Source: a virus
Virus record (IMG/VR): IMGVR_UViG_3300021389_000008
Span: 31,967-95,966 of that record
Length of the DNA stretch: 64,000 nucleotides
Direction: 5' to 3' (one strand)
Below are positions 33,304 to 39,121 of the stretch, in pieces. The notes beneath the pieces were generated by a model. The model searched no databases and was not told the DNA's origin. It saw only the letters and a program-made list of their open reading frames with translations. Each line of letters begins with the position of its first letter. Positions within the stretch are counted from its first letter, which is position 1. The position numbers were made by a program, and so were the translations under genes.

Positions 33304-33732
33304 TCATATAGCGGACGGTTTAAACCGAAGAATTACAAAAAATATACAGGCGACCCCACAAAGATTGTCTATCGTTCGCTGTGGGAGCGAAGATTCATGC
33401 AATATTGTGATGATAACACTAACATACTGGAATGGGGTAGTGAAGAAATCATTATACCATACATTTCTCCTGTGGACAACAAGGTTCATAGATACTTCCC
33501 CGATTTCTACATAAAATATCGTAACACTAAGGGTGAAGTGTTATATGAAATCATCGAAGTTAAACCCAAGAAGCAAACCAAACCACCCAAAGAACCCAAA
33601 CGAAAAACCAAAAGGTATATCAACGAGGTTGCAACATACCTTGTCAATCAAGCAAAGTTCAAAGCAGCTAACGAATACTGCAAAGACCGTAAATATAAAT
33701 TTAGAATATTAACTGAAGACCATCTAACTTAG
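33301..33732 (+). CDS. gp4: Head completion protein gp4 (143 aa)
   Basis: The ATG at 33301 is preferred (MSYSGRFKPKNYKKYTGDP); a TTG five codons earlier is possible. SLWERRFMQYCD, EEIIIPYISPVDNKVHRYFP, DFYI and IIEVKPKKQT are the conserved blocks of T4 gp4. The DFY - IEVK pattern is PD-(D/E)XK-like, which suggests a nuclease fold. T4 gp4 is 150 aa and is needed to finish DNA-filled heads for tail joining. It is the first gene of the rightward late operon. Confidence 0.87.
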   Translation: MSYSGRFKPKNYKKYTGDPTKIVYRSLWERRFMQYCDDNTNILEWGSEEIIIPYISPVDNKVHRYFPDFYIKYRNTKGEVLYEIIEVKPKKQTKPPKEPKRKTKRYINEVATYLVNQAKFKAANEYCKDRKYKFRILTEDHLT

Positions 33733-34455: not shown

Positions 34456-35292
34456 ATGGAAGATAAACCAAGAAATAGACACGACTCGATAGACACTATC
34501 ATCGGTGCAATTAAAGCTCCAGCAATGGCAAACCAATTTGAGGTTGCGTTTTTTGGCCCTCAAGGGTTAACACTTAATGCAGTTAGATGTAAGACTGCAA
34601 CTATTCCAAGTAGAAAAATAGAAGTTACTGAAAAGAACACACAAGGTAAATCTAAGTTTCTTCCAACAGGTAAAATTGATGACGGTGGAACTGCAACATT
34701 CACATTCTATTGTGACATTGATTTCTTAGATAGAAGAATCATGCAATTATGGTTAGACTCAATCTATGGTGGTGACACTGCAGCTCCTGAACAAGGAGAA
34801 GGTTCAGACCCAAACACACAACCTATCTTTGCATTCTATAAAGACTATATTGGTGAAGTAGAAATTAAACACCTTAGAAAGGATGGGTATAATCCTACCT
34901 TTGCTTCTGATGGGCAACAAGGTGCAAGTCTAATAACAAGATTACATGATGCATATCCAACATCAATCGATGAACTGGTATTGGATATGGCACAAGGTGA
35001 AATGTTAAGTGTAAGTGTACAATTTGCATACAGATATTTTACTACAGAATATGTGGAGAGTAAAAATCCACAGAAAACTCCTCACCCTGTTTATAATGGT
35101 GAAGGGACGACTCCGAACGGACTAAATAGTGGTAGGAGTCAAATCGATAACTTGCAAGAGGCCTTAGCGGTCGGTTCTAGATTTTCTAGTGCTGCTGGAA
35201 GGTTACAGAATAAAGTCTCAGGACTTACTACTGCAAAATCGAGGATTGATAACAGTTACAAGAATGTGAGAGACCTTTTTGGAACTCAATAA
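34456..35292 (+). CDS. Tail-tube-fold protein, gp54-like baseplate-tube junction (278 aa)
   Basis: PAMANQFEVAFFGPQGLTLN, then CKTATIPSRKIEVTEKNTQG, then TATFTFYCDIDFLDRRIMQL and MLSVSVQFAYRYFTTEYVES fit the tube-protein fold of T4 gp19/gp54. The length is closer to gp54 (320 aa) than gp19 (163 aa), and it sits among baseplate assembly genes. In T4, gp54 on the gp48 cap starts tube polymerisation. A C-terminal 60-residue helical tail (LQEALAVGSRFSSAAGRLQN) is extra. Ribosome site AAGGAAG. Confidence 0.65.
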   Translation: MEDKPRNRHDSIDTIIGAIKAPAMANQFEVAFFGPQGLTLNAVRCKTATIPSRKIEVTEKNTQGKSKFLPTGKIDDGGTATFTFYCDIDFLDRRIMQLWLDSIYGGDTAAPEQGEGSDPNTQPIFAFYKDYIGEVEIKHLRKDGYNPTFASDGQQGASLITRLHDAYPTSIDELVLDMAQGEMLSVSVQFAYRYFTTEYVESKNPQKTPHPVYNGEGTTPNGLNSGRSQIDNLQEALAVGSRFSSAAGRLQNKVSGLTTAKSRIDNSYKNVRDLFGTQ

Positions 35293-35311: not shown

Positions 35312-36016
35312 ATGGCATTACCGATTCAGTCGGCACCGACTTATAAAACAGTGCTACCTAGTAATGGTCAAGAAGTAGAATATAGACCATTCCTAGTAAA
35401 GGAACAAAAAGTTCTAGTCATGGCAAAAGAAAGCAATGACCAAGAACAAGTTATGCAATCAATCATTAAGATGCTTGATGCATGTACATTTGGTAAGTTA
35501 AAGATACCAAATATTGCTATGATGGATATGGAATGGTTGTTTATTAAAGTCCGTTCTGTTTCAGTTGGTGAAACATCTAAGTTAGTACTTGGTTGTACAG
35601 ACGAAGGATGTAGAGGAAATGCAAAAGTAGATTTAAATTTGGAAGACATTGAACCCACAAGTGAAATGCCTGAAGACGACACAGTCATGTTAACAGATGA
35701 CTTGGGTGTTAAATTGAAAGTTCCTAGTGTTAGAGACATCGATGGATTGACAAAGATGGACGAAACACAACAGAGTATGGAGATTGTGAAGAGATGTATC
35801 ACTTCTGTATTTGATGCCGATGAAGTGTATCCTATGGAAGATGTATCTCAAAAAGAGTTGGATGAGTTTTTTGATAGTTTGACGTTTACTCAACTAGACA
35901 AACTCGGGCAGTTCTTTGATAGTTTACCAAAACTAAGACATGAAGTAAGTTACTCGTGCGAAATATGTTCCAAAGAGAACACTAGAGTACTGGAAGGCAT
36001 CCAAAGTTTTTTTTAA
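35312..36016 (+). CDS. gp26: Baseplate hub assembly protein gp26 (T4_baseplate family)
   Basis: LPSNGQEVEYRPFLVKEQKV plus LVMAKESNDQEQVMQSIIKM is the hallmark of the gp26/T4_baseplate family. At 234 aa it is close to T4 gp26 (208). Two cysteine pairs (GCTDEGC near residue 90; SCEIC near 219) could form a zinc site. The frame ends in a run of eight T bases with TAA directly after, and the -1 frame continues into gp51. It is therefore probably the short form of a frameshifted pair, as with tail assembly chaperones of other phages. Ribosome site GGAG. Confidence 0.87.
   Translation: MALPIQSAPTYKTVLPSNGQEVEYRPFLVKEQKVLVMAKESNDQEQVMQSIIKMLDACTFGKLKIPNIAMMDMEWLFIKVRSVSVGETSKLVLGCTDEGCRGNAKVDLNLEDIEPTSEMPEDDTVMLTDDLGVKLKVPSVRDIDGLTKMDETQQSMEIVKRCITSVFDADEVYPMEDVSQKELDEFFDSLTFTQLDKLGQFFDSLPKLRHEVSYSCEICSKENTRVLEGIQSFF
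36007..36014 (+). promoter_or_regulatory. Candidate -1 ribosomal frameshift site (T8)
   Basis: In frame the bases read AGT TTT TTT TAA. Slipping back one base re-pairs both phenylalanine codons perfectly and avoids the stop. A GGTGTT/AACACC stem (36036-36041 with 36052-36057) lies 22 bases downstream, farther than usual. Confidence 0.65.
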
Positions 36017-36201
36017 TAGGCCTTTCCCACGAGTCGGTGTTGAATTTTTATAACACCAACTTTCAGTTAATGCAACACCACAAGTATTCATTAACTGAAC
36101 TAGATGAGATGATACCATGGGAACGAGAGGTATACATCAACCTATTACTTCAACACTTAGAAGAGGAAAGGCTAAAGAACGAACAACGAAAAAATAATTA
36201 A
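36016..36201 (+). CDS. gp51: gp51-like hub assembly region, probably made as gp26-gp51 frameshift fusion
   Basis: The -1 frame beyond the gp26 stop reads IGLSHESVLNFYNTNFQLMQ, then HHKYSLTELDEMIPWEREVY, then INLLLQHLEEERL, and stops at 36201. The EMIPWEREVYI-LL block is typical of gp51-type proteins. The first in-frame ATG is at 36070 and would drop the well-conserved LSHESVLNFYNTNF part. It also has no ribosome site. Translation by frameshifting from gp26 is thus more likely than an independent start. In T4, gp51 is a catalyst of hub assembly. Confidence 0.7.
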   Translation: MGLSHESVLNFYNTNFQLMQHHKYSLTELDEMIPWEREVYINLLLQHLEEERLKNEQRKNN

Positions 36202-36246: not shown

Positions 36247-36633
36247 ATGAGTGACGACAAAAAAATTAGTCAAGGTAATGTCGAGATAGATGTTGCTAAG
36301 TATACAGAGATGGTCTTGAAGTTAGACGAAGCACAGGACAAAATCAAAGAGATGGAGAAGTTATCTAAGGAATTGCAAGTTGCAACAGCAGCAGCAAAAC
36401 CAAAAGAAAGGTTCTCTATTGGTGCATTGTTCAGAGATGAAAATGACATCAATGAAAAAGCAATCATAGGATTTGCCTCATTCTTTTTAATGGTCGTATT
36501 CGGAATGGCAGATTTAATTACTGCATTTTGGGATATGGACTTAAAAGTATCTGACACTATCTACACTTCATTTGTTGTAGTAACGTTAGGTGCGTTTGGA
36601 ATATCAGAAGCAGGAAAAGCATTCGGAAAATAA
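36247..36633 (+). CDS. Two-span membrane protein with coiled coil (128 aa)
   Basis: Residues 15-55 are charged and helical (KYTEMVLKLDEAQDKIKEME). Two hydrophobic segments follow, at about 76-97 (IIGFASFFLMVVFGMADLIT) and about 105-122 (TIYTSFVVVTLGAFGI). Size and topology would suit a holin, but the place between gp51 and the tape measure also suits a tail-associated membrane factor. A GAGG ribosome site precedes it. Similar proteins occur in marine T4-like phages, though no function is known to me. Confidence 0.6.
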   Translation: MSDDKKISQGNVEIDVAKYTEMVLKLDEAQDKIKEMEKLSKELQVATAAAKPKERFSIGALFRDENDINEKAIIGFASFFLMVVFGMADLITAFWDMDLKVSDTIYTSFVVVTLGAFGISEAGKAFGK

Positions 36634-36637
36634 TTAA

Positions 36638-39121
36638 ATGGCAGATGACAAGGACATAAAGAAGATTAACGATAGAATCACCAGTGTAACGACTGACATA
36701 GAAAAGACGTTACAACAAGGTGGTAGAGATATCGATAAGGGCATGAAGAGCGTTAACAAACGGTTTGGTGCTTCTATCGAAAAACTTAAAACTACTAACC
36801 AAGCACTATCTAAGATATCACTCGATTCTATCAATACTCAAAAGTCCACCTACTCAGGCGCTTTACAGGGAAACAAACTTTTAGGTTTGCAATCATCCCT
36901 TGCTGGTGTTATGGAAGGAACTCTCGATAAGTCATCTGAAGAATTTAAAAAGTTAGAGGACTCCTTTCCTGAAGTGGATTTGACGAAGTACGTCAACTCA
37001 CATAAAAAATTCATGGAAGCAGCGGAAGAGAATGAGAACCTTGCATTCCGTGAACAGATGTTGAATGGTAAGAAACAAGCACTTCAAGATAGACAAGAAC
37101 AACAAACAGAAACAATCCTTGGTAAGACAGAACAATATCAAACACTTCTTAACGAAACTGAAACAGCAAGACAAGATGCTGAAAAACTTGCTAAAGAGTA
37201 TGCACTAACAGGTGCAGCTCAAACTGCCAAAGAATTAGGTGAAGCAAACAAAAGAAGAGATGAACTCGATAAGAAAGCAGAAGAAGTTAAGAAAAGAACT
37301 ATGGAGTCTTTGGATTTAAGATTTGCTAAAGAGAAAGAAACTCTAGAGTTACAAGGCACTAAATTAGATGAGTTGAAACAAAAGAACCAAAAGATACTTG
37401 ATAAACAACAAGCAGTTAAAGATGTAGAAGAAACTTTAATTGGCGACAAGATGGCAGAAATTTCAACGGATTCGGGTCGTCTTGGTCAATTCTCTGATGG
37501 TCTCAAAACACTCACAGGGTTTGACCTTGTCGGACTTGCGGATGATGTAGTTAAAAACATTGATGCTGTTGGTAAGATATTCGCTACAGAAGACCTATTC
37601 CAAAACTTGGTAATGAGTACTACGGGATTCTTTACCAGTATCGGTGATGGGTTGAAGAACGGATTGAAAGGACTTGATTCGTTACTAGGTTCGCCCTCTG
37701 CAATAATTTCAAAAGGTGTTAGTTCTATATCATCTACTCTTTCCGCTGGGTTTGATACTGCAAAAGGCGTAATTGCTAAAGGTCTTTCTGGCATATTGGG
37801 CGGCGTTAAACAAATGGGGATGTCATTAATACTTGCTGGTAAGTCGATGGTTACAGCTGCAGCTGCATCAATCAAATCAGGCATGGTATTCCTAATGGCT
37901 GGTGCAAGTGCAATGGGAATGGCAATACTAAATGCGGGCAGAGCAATGGCCACAGCAGCTGCTGGAATGCTTGCCTCTGTCATACCATTTATTGCAGCTG
38001 GTCTTGCATTTATTGGTGGTTTACTTTTGACTGCTGGTAGTATGTTATTGACTGCACTACCGTTCATTGCAATCGGTGTTGCTATACTTGCAGCTGGTGT
38101 GATACTCTACAATGCGTTTATGGCAATGTATGAGAATGTTGGATGGTTTAAAGGTATCATAGACACTGGAATATCATACCTCATGAACATAGGTCAAGCA
38201 ATCTTTGATATCTTTGCTGGTATGTTTGATTTGGTTGTGGGACTATTTACAGGTGACTTTGATAGAGTCATGGAAGGTCTTACTGGTATGTTTGGTGGTC
38301 TATGGGATTTACTCATGGCACCGTTTAAAGCAATCGGTGACTTCTTTAAGAATGTATTCGACATAGACATCGGTAAGATGTTAAGAGATTTTGCTTCAAA
38401 GATATTACCCAATTGGTTGGTCAAAAAGATTTTCGGAAACGAGGCTGAGGCACCAATTACAGATGAACAGGCTGAATCTGTTGACTCTACTGGTGAAATG
38501 TCACCAGCGGCAACAGCGATGGCGACTGGATTGGAAGATACTAATACCCAAGAACTCATCAATGAAAGAAAGGCCCAAGAAGACCAAGCATACAATGCTG
38601 ATATGCAGTTGAGACGAAGAGAAAGAAATATTGCTCAAGGTATGAAAGGTAATGTTACCGTAAATGGAGAAACTCTCGAAGGTGATGAGAAAAGAGAATA
38701 CCTAGAAAATAAGGCTGATTCCGGCGGACTAGACTATATGGATACAAGCAGTGTCAAGACTGGTTTTGAAGGTATGACATCTGCAGAGATTGAAAAGACT
38801 AAGTTCAGTGCTGAACAAGAAGTAACAGACATTCAAGGTACCCTAGACCAAAGAAAAGACTATGCTAAGAGTAATATGGTAGCGACTGGTGAAGAAGACT
38901 TCTTTGGTGATATGGAATATGAAGAGACTGGTGACAGAGTTAAGACTGCTCGAGAAATGGAATTAGAATCAAAGACTGAATCGGAAAAGGCACCAATCAA
39001 TACTGCAGTAACACAACAGAATAACAATCAAACTAATGTTACTAATAATGCAATATCTAGTATGCCTGTTGTTAATGATAATGATTCGTCTGCGAAATTA
39101 GGATACGCTGTTGCGTTCTAA
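36638..39121 (+). CDS. gp29: Tail tape measure/hub protein, gp29-like (827 aa)
   Basis: Residues 1-280 are highly helical and charged (DKDIKKINDRITSVTTDIEK; AEKLAKEYALTGAAQTAKEL). Residues 380-510 are a long hydrophobic, Ala/Gly-rich region (AAASIKSGMVFLMAGASAMG, then AAGLAFIGGLLLTAGSMLLT). This layout is typical of tape measure proteins, with the hydrophobic part crossing the inner membrane during DNA entry. The C-terminus is polar and ends with an Asn-rich stretch. T4 gp29 is 590 aa, so a somewhat longer tail is expected if this sets length. It is the last gene of the rightward operon. Confidence 0.75.
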   Translation: MADDKDIKKINDRITSVTTDIEKTLQQGGRDIDKGMKSVNKRFGASIEKLKTTNQALSKISLDSINTQKSTYSGALQGNKLLGLQSSLAGVMEGTLDKSSEEFKKLEDSFPEVDLTKYVNSHKKFMEAAEENENLAFREQMLNGKKQALQDRQEQQTETILGKTEQYQTLLNETETARQDAEKLAKEYALTGAAQTAKELGEANKRRDELDKKAEEVKKRTMESLDLRFAKEKETLELQGTKLDELKQKNQKILDKQQAVKDVEETLIGDKMAEISTDSGRLGQFSDGLKTLTGFDLVGLADDVVKNIDAVGKIFATEDLFQNLVMSTTGFFTSIGDGLKNGLKGLDSLLGSPSAIISKGVSSISSTLSAGFDTAKGVIAKGLSGILGGVKQMGMSLILAGKSMVTAAAASIKSGMVFLMAGASAMGMAILNAGRAMATAAAGMLASVIPFIAAGLAFIGGLLLTAGSMLLTALPFIAIGVAILAAGVILYNAFMAMYENVGWFKGIIDTGISYLMNIGQAIFDIFAGMFDLVVGLFTGDFDRVMEGLTGMFGGLWDLLMAPFKAIGDFFKNVFDIDIGKMLRDFASKILPNWLVKKIFGNEAEAPITDEQAESVDSTGEMSPAATAMATGLEDTNTQELINERKAQEDQAYNADMQLRRRERNIAQGMKGNVTVNGETLEGDEKREYLENKADSGGLDYMDTSSVKTGFEGMTSAEIEKTKFSAEQEVTDIQGTLDQRKDYAKSNMVATGEEDFFGDMEYEETGDRVKTAREMELESKTESEKAPINTAVTQQNNNQTNVTNNAISSMPVVNDNDSSAKLGYAVAF

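Follow-up and report, generated by a model that had tools for sequence, protein, structure and literature searches.

Probable -1 programmed frameshifting joins gp26 and gp51 of a marine T4-like phage into one tail assembly chaperone gene

Tail assembly chaperones are usually produced in two lengths by a -1 frameshift, and the adjoining gp26 and gp51 reading frames in the 64,000-nucleotide stretch of viral DNA analyzed here (the window) raise the question of whether they encode two proteins or the short and long forms of one such chaperone. The annotations of hundreds of cyanophage and pelagiphage genomes treat gp26 and gp51 as two separate baseplate proteins, and gp51 is frequently cut short or absent in them. 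The T4 gp26 and gp51 proteins have been listed as hub assembly chaperones (PMC3004832), and the G-T frameshift has been reviewed together with the lambda G/GT chaperone mechanism, with T4 still named as an exception in 2016 (PMC5009743). Comparison of the window with related loci makes it very probable that gp26 and gp51 constitute one tail assembly chaperone gene, from which a -1 programmed frameshift would yield a short product (TAC-N) and an extended one (TAC-NC).

The gp26-gp51 junction and its genomic context

In a Pfam profile search, gp26 of the window matched T4_baseplate with 187.5 bits against a curated cut-off of 24.5, and the 3' end of the gene reads CAA AGT TTT TTT TAA (Table 1). 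The sequence-only reading had described this ending, a -1 frame that runs through the eight Ts without a stop, and about 62 conserved codons beyond them, all of which was confirmed. The translated part of this frame would start at 36007 after slippage, 62 codons extend from 36013 to the stop, and the peptide from the slip site onward would be FFLIGLSHESVLNFYNTNFQLMQHHKYSLTELDEMIPWEREVYINLLLQHLEEERLKNEQRKNN. The -1 product (FFLIGLSHESVLNFYNTNFQ...EMIPWEREVY...) was matched over its residues 3-60 by phrog_634, annotated as "baseplate hub assembly catalyst," and also by the C-terminus of phrog_150 (positions 236-279 of 282), a part that gp26 of the window stops short of. A scan of the 99 open frames of at least 100 codons in the window for a canonical heptamer near the end (in the last nine codons) combined with a -1 extension of at least 50 codons returned gp26 alone.

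Table 1. Features at and around the gp26-gp51 junction (positions in the window).
Feature	Position	Strand	Evidence
Tail tube protein gene, upstream of gp26	34456..35292	+	phrog_45 tail tube, E 3e-27
gp26 / TAC-N, frame 0, 234 aa	35312..36016	+	Pfam T4_baseplate PF12322, E 3.5e-55; phrog_150 baseplate hub, E 3e-58
-1 open frame with gp51 / TAC-C domain; stop 36199-36201	35986..36201	+	phrog_634, E 1.8e-24
GGAAGG, Shine-Dalgarno (SD)-like (anti-16S) stretch, about 10 nt 5' of the heptamer	35992..35997	+	sequence; putative function
Slip heptamer T TTT TTT, within T8 36007-36014	36007..36013	+	T TTT TT[TCA] in 143/143 distinct junctions
gp26 stop TAA, frame 0, adjoining the heptamer	36014..36016	+	sequence
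Candidate stimulatory hairpin, stem of 11 bp and loop of 8 nt, 17 nt 3' of the heptamer	36031..36062	+	compensatory changes
Candidate tape measure gene, 827 aa, downstream	36638..39121	+	position and size

The candidate tape measure gene occupies the place at which a tape measure is annotated in HTVC008M and phiM12; in a pairwise comparison its product was weakly similar to that tape measure of HTVC008M (E 0.004), and it had no match in a PHROG profile search. A 128-aa ORF with a coiled-coil-like start and hydrophobic segments lies between gp51 and this candidate (36247-36633) and had no informative family match. Further upstream, a gp4-like head completion protein is encoded at 33334-33732, and Pfam matched it to the N-terminal domain of the TnsA endonuclease (E 5.6e-24).

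Conservation of the slip site and reading frame

Loci were gathered by searching viral contigs with gp26 and gp51 as queries and were joined by named phages, which gave 175 loci with gp26 and gp51 on the same strand and, among these, 143 distinct junctions. In this junction alignment, which the sequence-only reading had proposed as a check, the T run was kept and gp51 lay in the -1 frame relative to gp26 in all 143, whether they came from marine viral contigs or from named phages, the heptamers being TTTTTTC (74), TTTTTTT (54), and TTTTTTA (15). The codon before the Phe-Phe pair ended in T in all 143 against 89.3 expected from codon use, and the T TTT TTN form was present at only 7 of 118 other Phe-Phe pairs of the same genes. 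This rarity elsewhere, set against an invariant heptamer and T-ending codon at the junction, argues for selection on the bases and not on the amino acids alone. The frame-0 stop adjoined the heptamer in 34 junctions and stood 3 nt (one codon) further in 100. The same arrangement was found in phiM12, HTVC008M, Vibrio D491s, Aeromonas CC2, ACP17, MA01, Pseudoalteromonas XG4, Stenotrophomonas YB07, and a Desulfovibrio phage, and the slip site was also found in Sinorhizobium and Acidovorax phages. On the strength of these sequence comparisons chance can be regarded as excluded, given that the ORF is the only one of its kind in the window, is homologous to phrog_634, and retains heptamer and frame in every junction.

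Homopolymer runs are prone to sequencing and assembly error, and the frame change could on that account be an artifact, with the true gene an in-frame fusion. One apparent case of such an error is Stenotrophomonas phage IME-SM1 (KR560069), which has five Ts at the slip site where its relatives have six. As a true exception it was rejected, the other 14 matching records being one base longer across this stretch and YB07 reading six Ts; its five Ts are probably a one-base indel or sequencing error that would garble the annotated C-terminus of gp26. For the junction at large, the artifact has a negligible probability and is refuted by the conservation of the frame offset in 143 of 143, the same offset being present in finished isolate genomes and at sites of six Ts.

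A second possibility is independent production of gp51 by translational coupling or by reinitiation past the gp26 stop, from GTG 36037, TTG 36040, ATG 36070, or a non-AUG codon, the T run then being incidental. The tight packing of the genes would suit such a scheme, as would the own start given to gp51 by annotators in several phages. Possible starts were scanned in the 143 junctions as ATG, GTG, or TTG codons in the -1 frame, between the preceding -1 stop and a point 24 nt beyond the first base of the slip site; none occurred within this range in 91 junctions, and a start codon with an SD sequence for gp51 was found in 0 of 143. An ATG without an SD sequence did occur 15 nt after the start of the heptamer, just past the gp26 stop, in 28 of the 143, so that a certain amount of free gp51 could arise by reinitiation in the subclade concerned. 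Within the window, the sequence-only reading was right that ATG 36070 would remove conserved residues, but it had taken this codon for the only later start and had overlooked GTG 36037 and TTG 36040; both of these lack a good SD sequence and either would remove a conserved LSH block, so any possible start would cost gp51 conserved residues. In annotated genomes, gp51 was left out in S-WAM1 and ACG-2014e and begins within the conserved block in P-HM2 and Mosig. Together with the heptamer, which is invariant here and rare at the other Phe-Phe pairs, and with the joined protein encoded as a single gene in T4 (see below), these observations make separate initiation of gp51 very improbable. The earlier claim that gp26 and gp51 are joined by a -1 frameshift was thus supported by the invariant offset and heptamer, the codon constraint at nucleotide level, and the lack of an SD start across the junctions.

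Candidate stimulators and proposed mechanism

Sequence signals that could promote slippage were identified on both sides of the heptamer. An SD-like position was enriched beyond codon expectation across the 143 homologues, about 9-14 nt before the heptamer. Pairing with the 16S tail at -20 to -6 averaged -6.7 kcal/mol, compared with -5.26 kcal/mol for synonymous shuffles (Wilcoxon p 3e-13), p-values here being optimistic because the junction sequences are related to one another. Within the SD-like stretch, GAG accounted for 57 of 86 Glu codons against a background of 25%, and GGG for 20% against 6%. The GGAAGG of the window is a weaker 16S match than those of many relatives.

Downstream of the heptamer, RNA from +12 to +72 was more stable than coding-preserving shuffles (mean z -1.78, with 43% below -2), compared with z of about -0.2 to -0.35 in control windows within gp26. 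The window hairpin (Table 1) showed compensatory double changes in two pairs among five close relatives, and its single-sequence z reached only -1.45. Downstream frameshift hairpins usually stand behind a spacer of 5-9 nt, which the 17 nt of the window exceeds, and as a stimulator this hairpin is suggestive only. In some junctions, such as that of P-SSM2, an 11-bp hairpin stands 5 nt after the heptamer. A search for one RNA structure common to the 143 junctions found none, the place and register of the hairpin varying by lineage, and no Rfam family matched at the junction.

These signals also bear on slippage of RNA polymerase on T8, by which one added U would give some mRNAs that encode the fusion with no ribosomal slip. 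The run of the window is long enough to permit some of it, and one extra U would yield an identical fusion. However, just six Ts are present in 89 of the 143 homologues, usually as TTTTTTC, which is short for polymerase slippage, and the conserved elements are an in-register heptamer, an SD-like stretch, and RNA structure, all of which act on the ribosome; polymerase slippage is on this evidence very improbable.

For programmed ribosomal frameshifting, the preferred reading, we infer the following course of translation. The majority of ribosomes would terminate at the frame-0 stop and release the short chaperone, and a smaller share, whose P and A sites hold Phe-tRNAs on the heptamer, would slip back one base and read the -1 frame to 36198, giving as TAC-NC a fusion of gp26 with gp51, about 296 aa long, via ...QSFFLIGLSHES.... 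The rate of slippage would be raised by the upstream GGAAGG and perhaps by the downstream hairpin. If the lambda G/GT scheme applies, the tape measure protein would be coated by many chaperone copies of the short form with few of the long one, whose extra domain may recruit tail tube subunits.

The resemblance to lambda gpG/gpGT lies in a short product, a -1 slip near the gene end, and a C-terminal extension without its own start, as well as, if the 827-aa candidate is the tape measure, in the order tail tube, chaperone, and tape measure. Lambda slips on G GGA AAG, in contrast to T TTT TTT in the window, and no homology to lambda gpG/gpGT was detected by Pfam, in which T4_baseplate was the sole match at this locus. 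With dnaX of Escherichia coli the locus shares a slippery run behind an SD-like stimulator and, in some lineages, a downstream hairpin; it differs in having a T-run where dnaX has an A-run and in stimulators that are predicted only. The G/GT-type design claimed by the sequence-only reading gained support also from the T4 group, which has the joined form as a true full-length gene.

Gene duplication in the T4 group and relation to other T4-like phages

T4 gp26 is homologous along its full length to gp26 of the window (hhalign E 5e-16) but lacks the heptamer and has a direct overlap with gene 25, which follows; a remnant -1 extension of gp51 type was looked for in T4 gp26 and was not found. The long form of T4 comes from a separate, divergently placed gene with its own gp26-like domain. 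T4 gp26 and T4 gp51 matched each other (BLASTP E 2e-6) and both matched phrog_150, of whose 282 positions gp26 covers up to 235 and gp51 up to 280, and the marine gp51 profile matched residues 204-244 of T4 gp51 (hhalign E 1.8e-5). Judged by these alignments, T4 gp26 and gp51 are paralogues, and T4 gp51, as a gp26 paralogue with a C-terminal domain homologous to the marine -1 product, represents the joined form as a gene of its own. T4 looks derived, with frameshifting replaced by gene duplication. In gp26 of the T4 group the site is encoded mostly as TTC TTT and the heptamer is absent; its loss where frameshifting is not needed supplies a natural negative control. The sequence-only reading had counted relatives with a clear gp51 start and no slippery run as evidence against its idea. 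T4 is such a relative, yet the idea stands because its gp51 carries its own gp26 domain. T4 gp26 also has a weak match (E 9e-4) to phrog_1140, the gp28-like hub distal subunit, which hints at gp28 as another, distant paralogue.

Frameshifting in several T4-like groups, with genes 26 and 51 in T4, was reportedly described by Vladimirov, Gautam, and Davidson in Virology in 2022. Later papers cite Vladimirov et al. (2022; Virology 566:9-15, doi 10.1016/j.virol.2021.11.003) for T4-like phages with one short and one fusion gene (PMC10885494) and for poly-T signals for slippage in the TAC-N genes of T4-like phages (PMC12846349). As far as these citations convey it, the TAC-N/TAC-NC system of that work likewise consists of a short chaperone and a C-terminally extended form, appears to involve the same genes, and probably does not differ in kind, so that the window is a further marine member. 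The present finding is therefore correct without being new in kind, frameshifted chaperones having already been proposed for T4-like phages in the work so cited. The earlier suggestion that gp26/gp51 belongs unrecognized to this class is supported for the marine junctions, but it had been published already and T4 itself does not frameshift here. What this analysis adds is the case of the window, conservation without exception in the marine lineages, two putative stimulators, and the Ackermannviridae-type relatives. A single-gene annotation with a -1 frameshift is called for in the case of gp26 and gp51, and very abundant ocean phages would then fit the general tail assembly scheme. The aligned natural signals also offer a test bed for the trade-off among slip site, SD-like element, and hairpin.

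The Ackermannviridae-type phages retain a gp51-like ORF in the -1 frame, with the canonical heptamer absent and the site reading NTT TTY. It is conceivable, if rather doubtful as a complete scheme, that the long chaperone is reached by at least three routes: -1 slippage at T TTT TTN together with an SD-like element and an RNA stimulator in the marine and most other lineages, a separate duplicated gene in the T4 group, and, in the Ackermannviridae-type phages, either non-canonical slippage at NTT TTY or termination-reinitiation at an AUG, AUU, or AUC overlapping the gp26 stop. In these last phages the site was ATT TTC in those of Salmonella, Klebsiella, and Dickeya, GTT TTC in Serratia KNP4, CTT TTC in Aeromonas TSW001 and Vibrio D506, and CTT TTT in Vibrio 1.255.O, and the codon overlapping the gp26 stop was ATG, ATT, or ATC.
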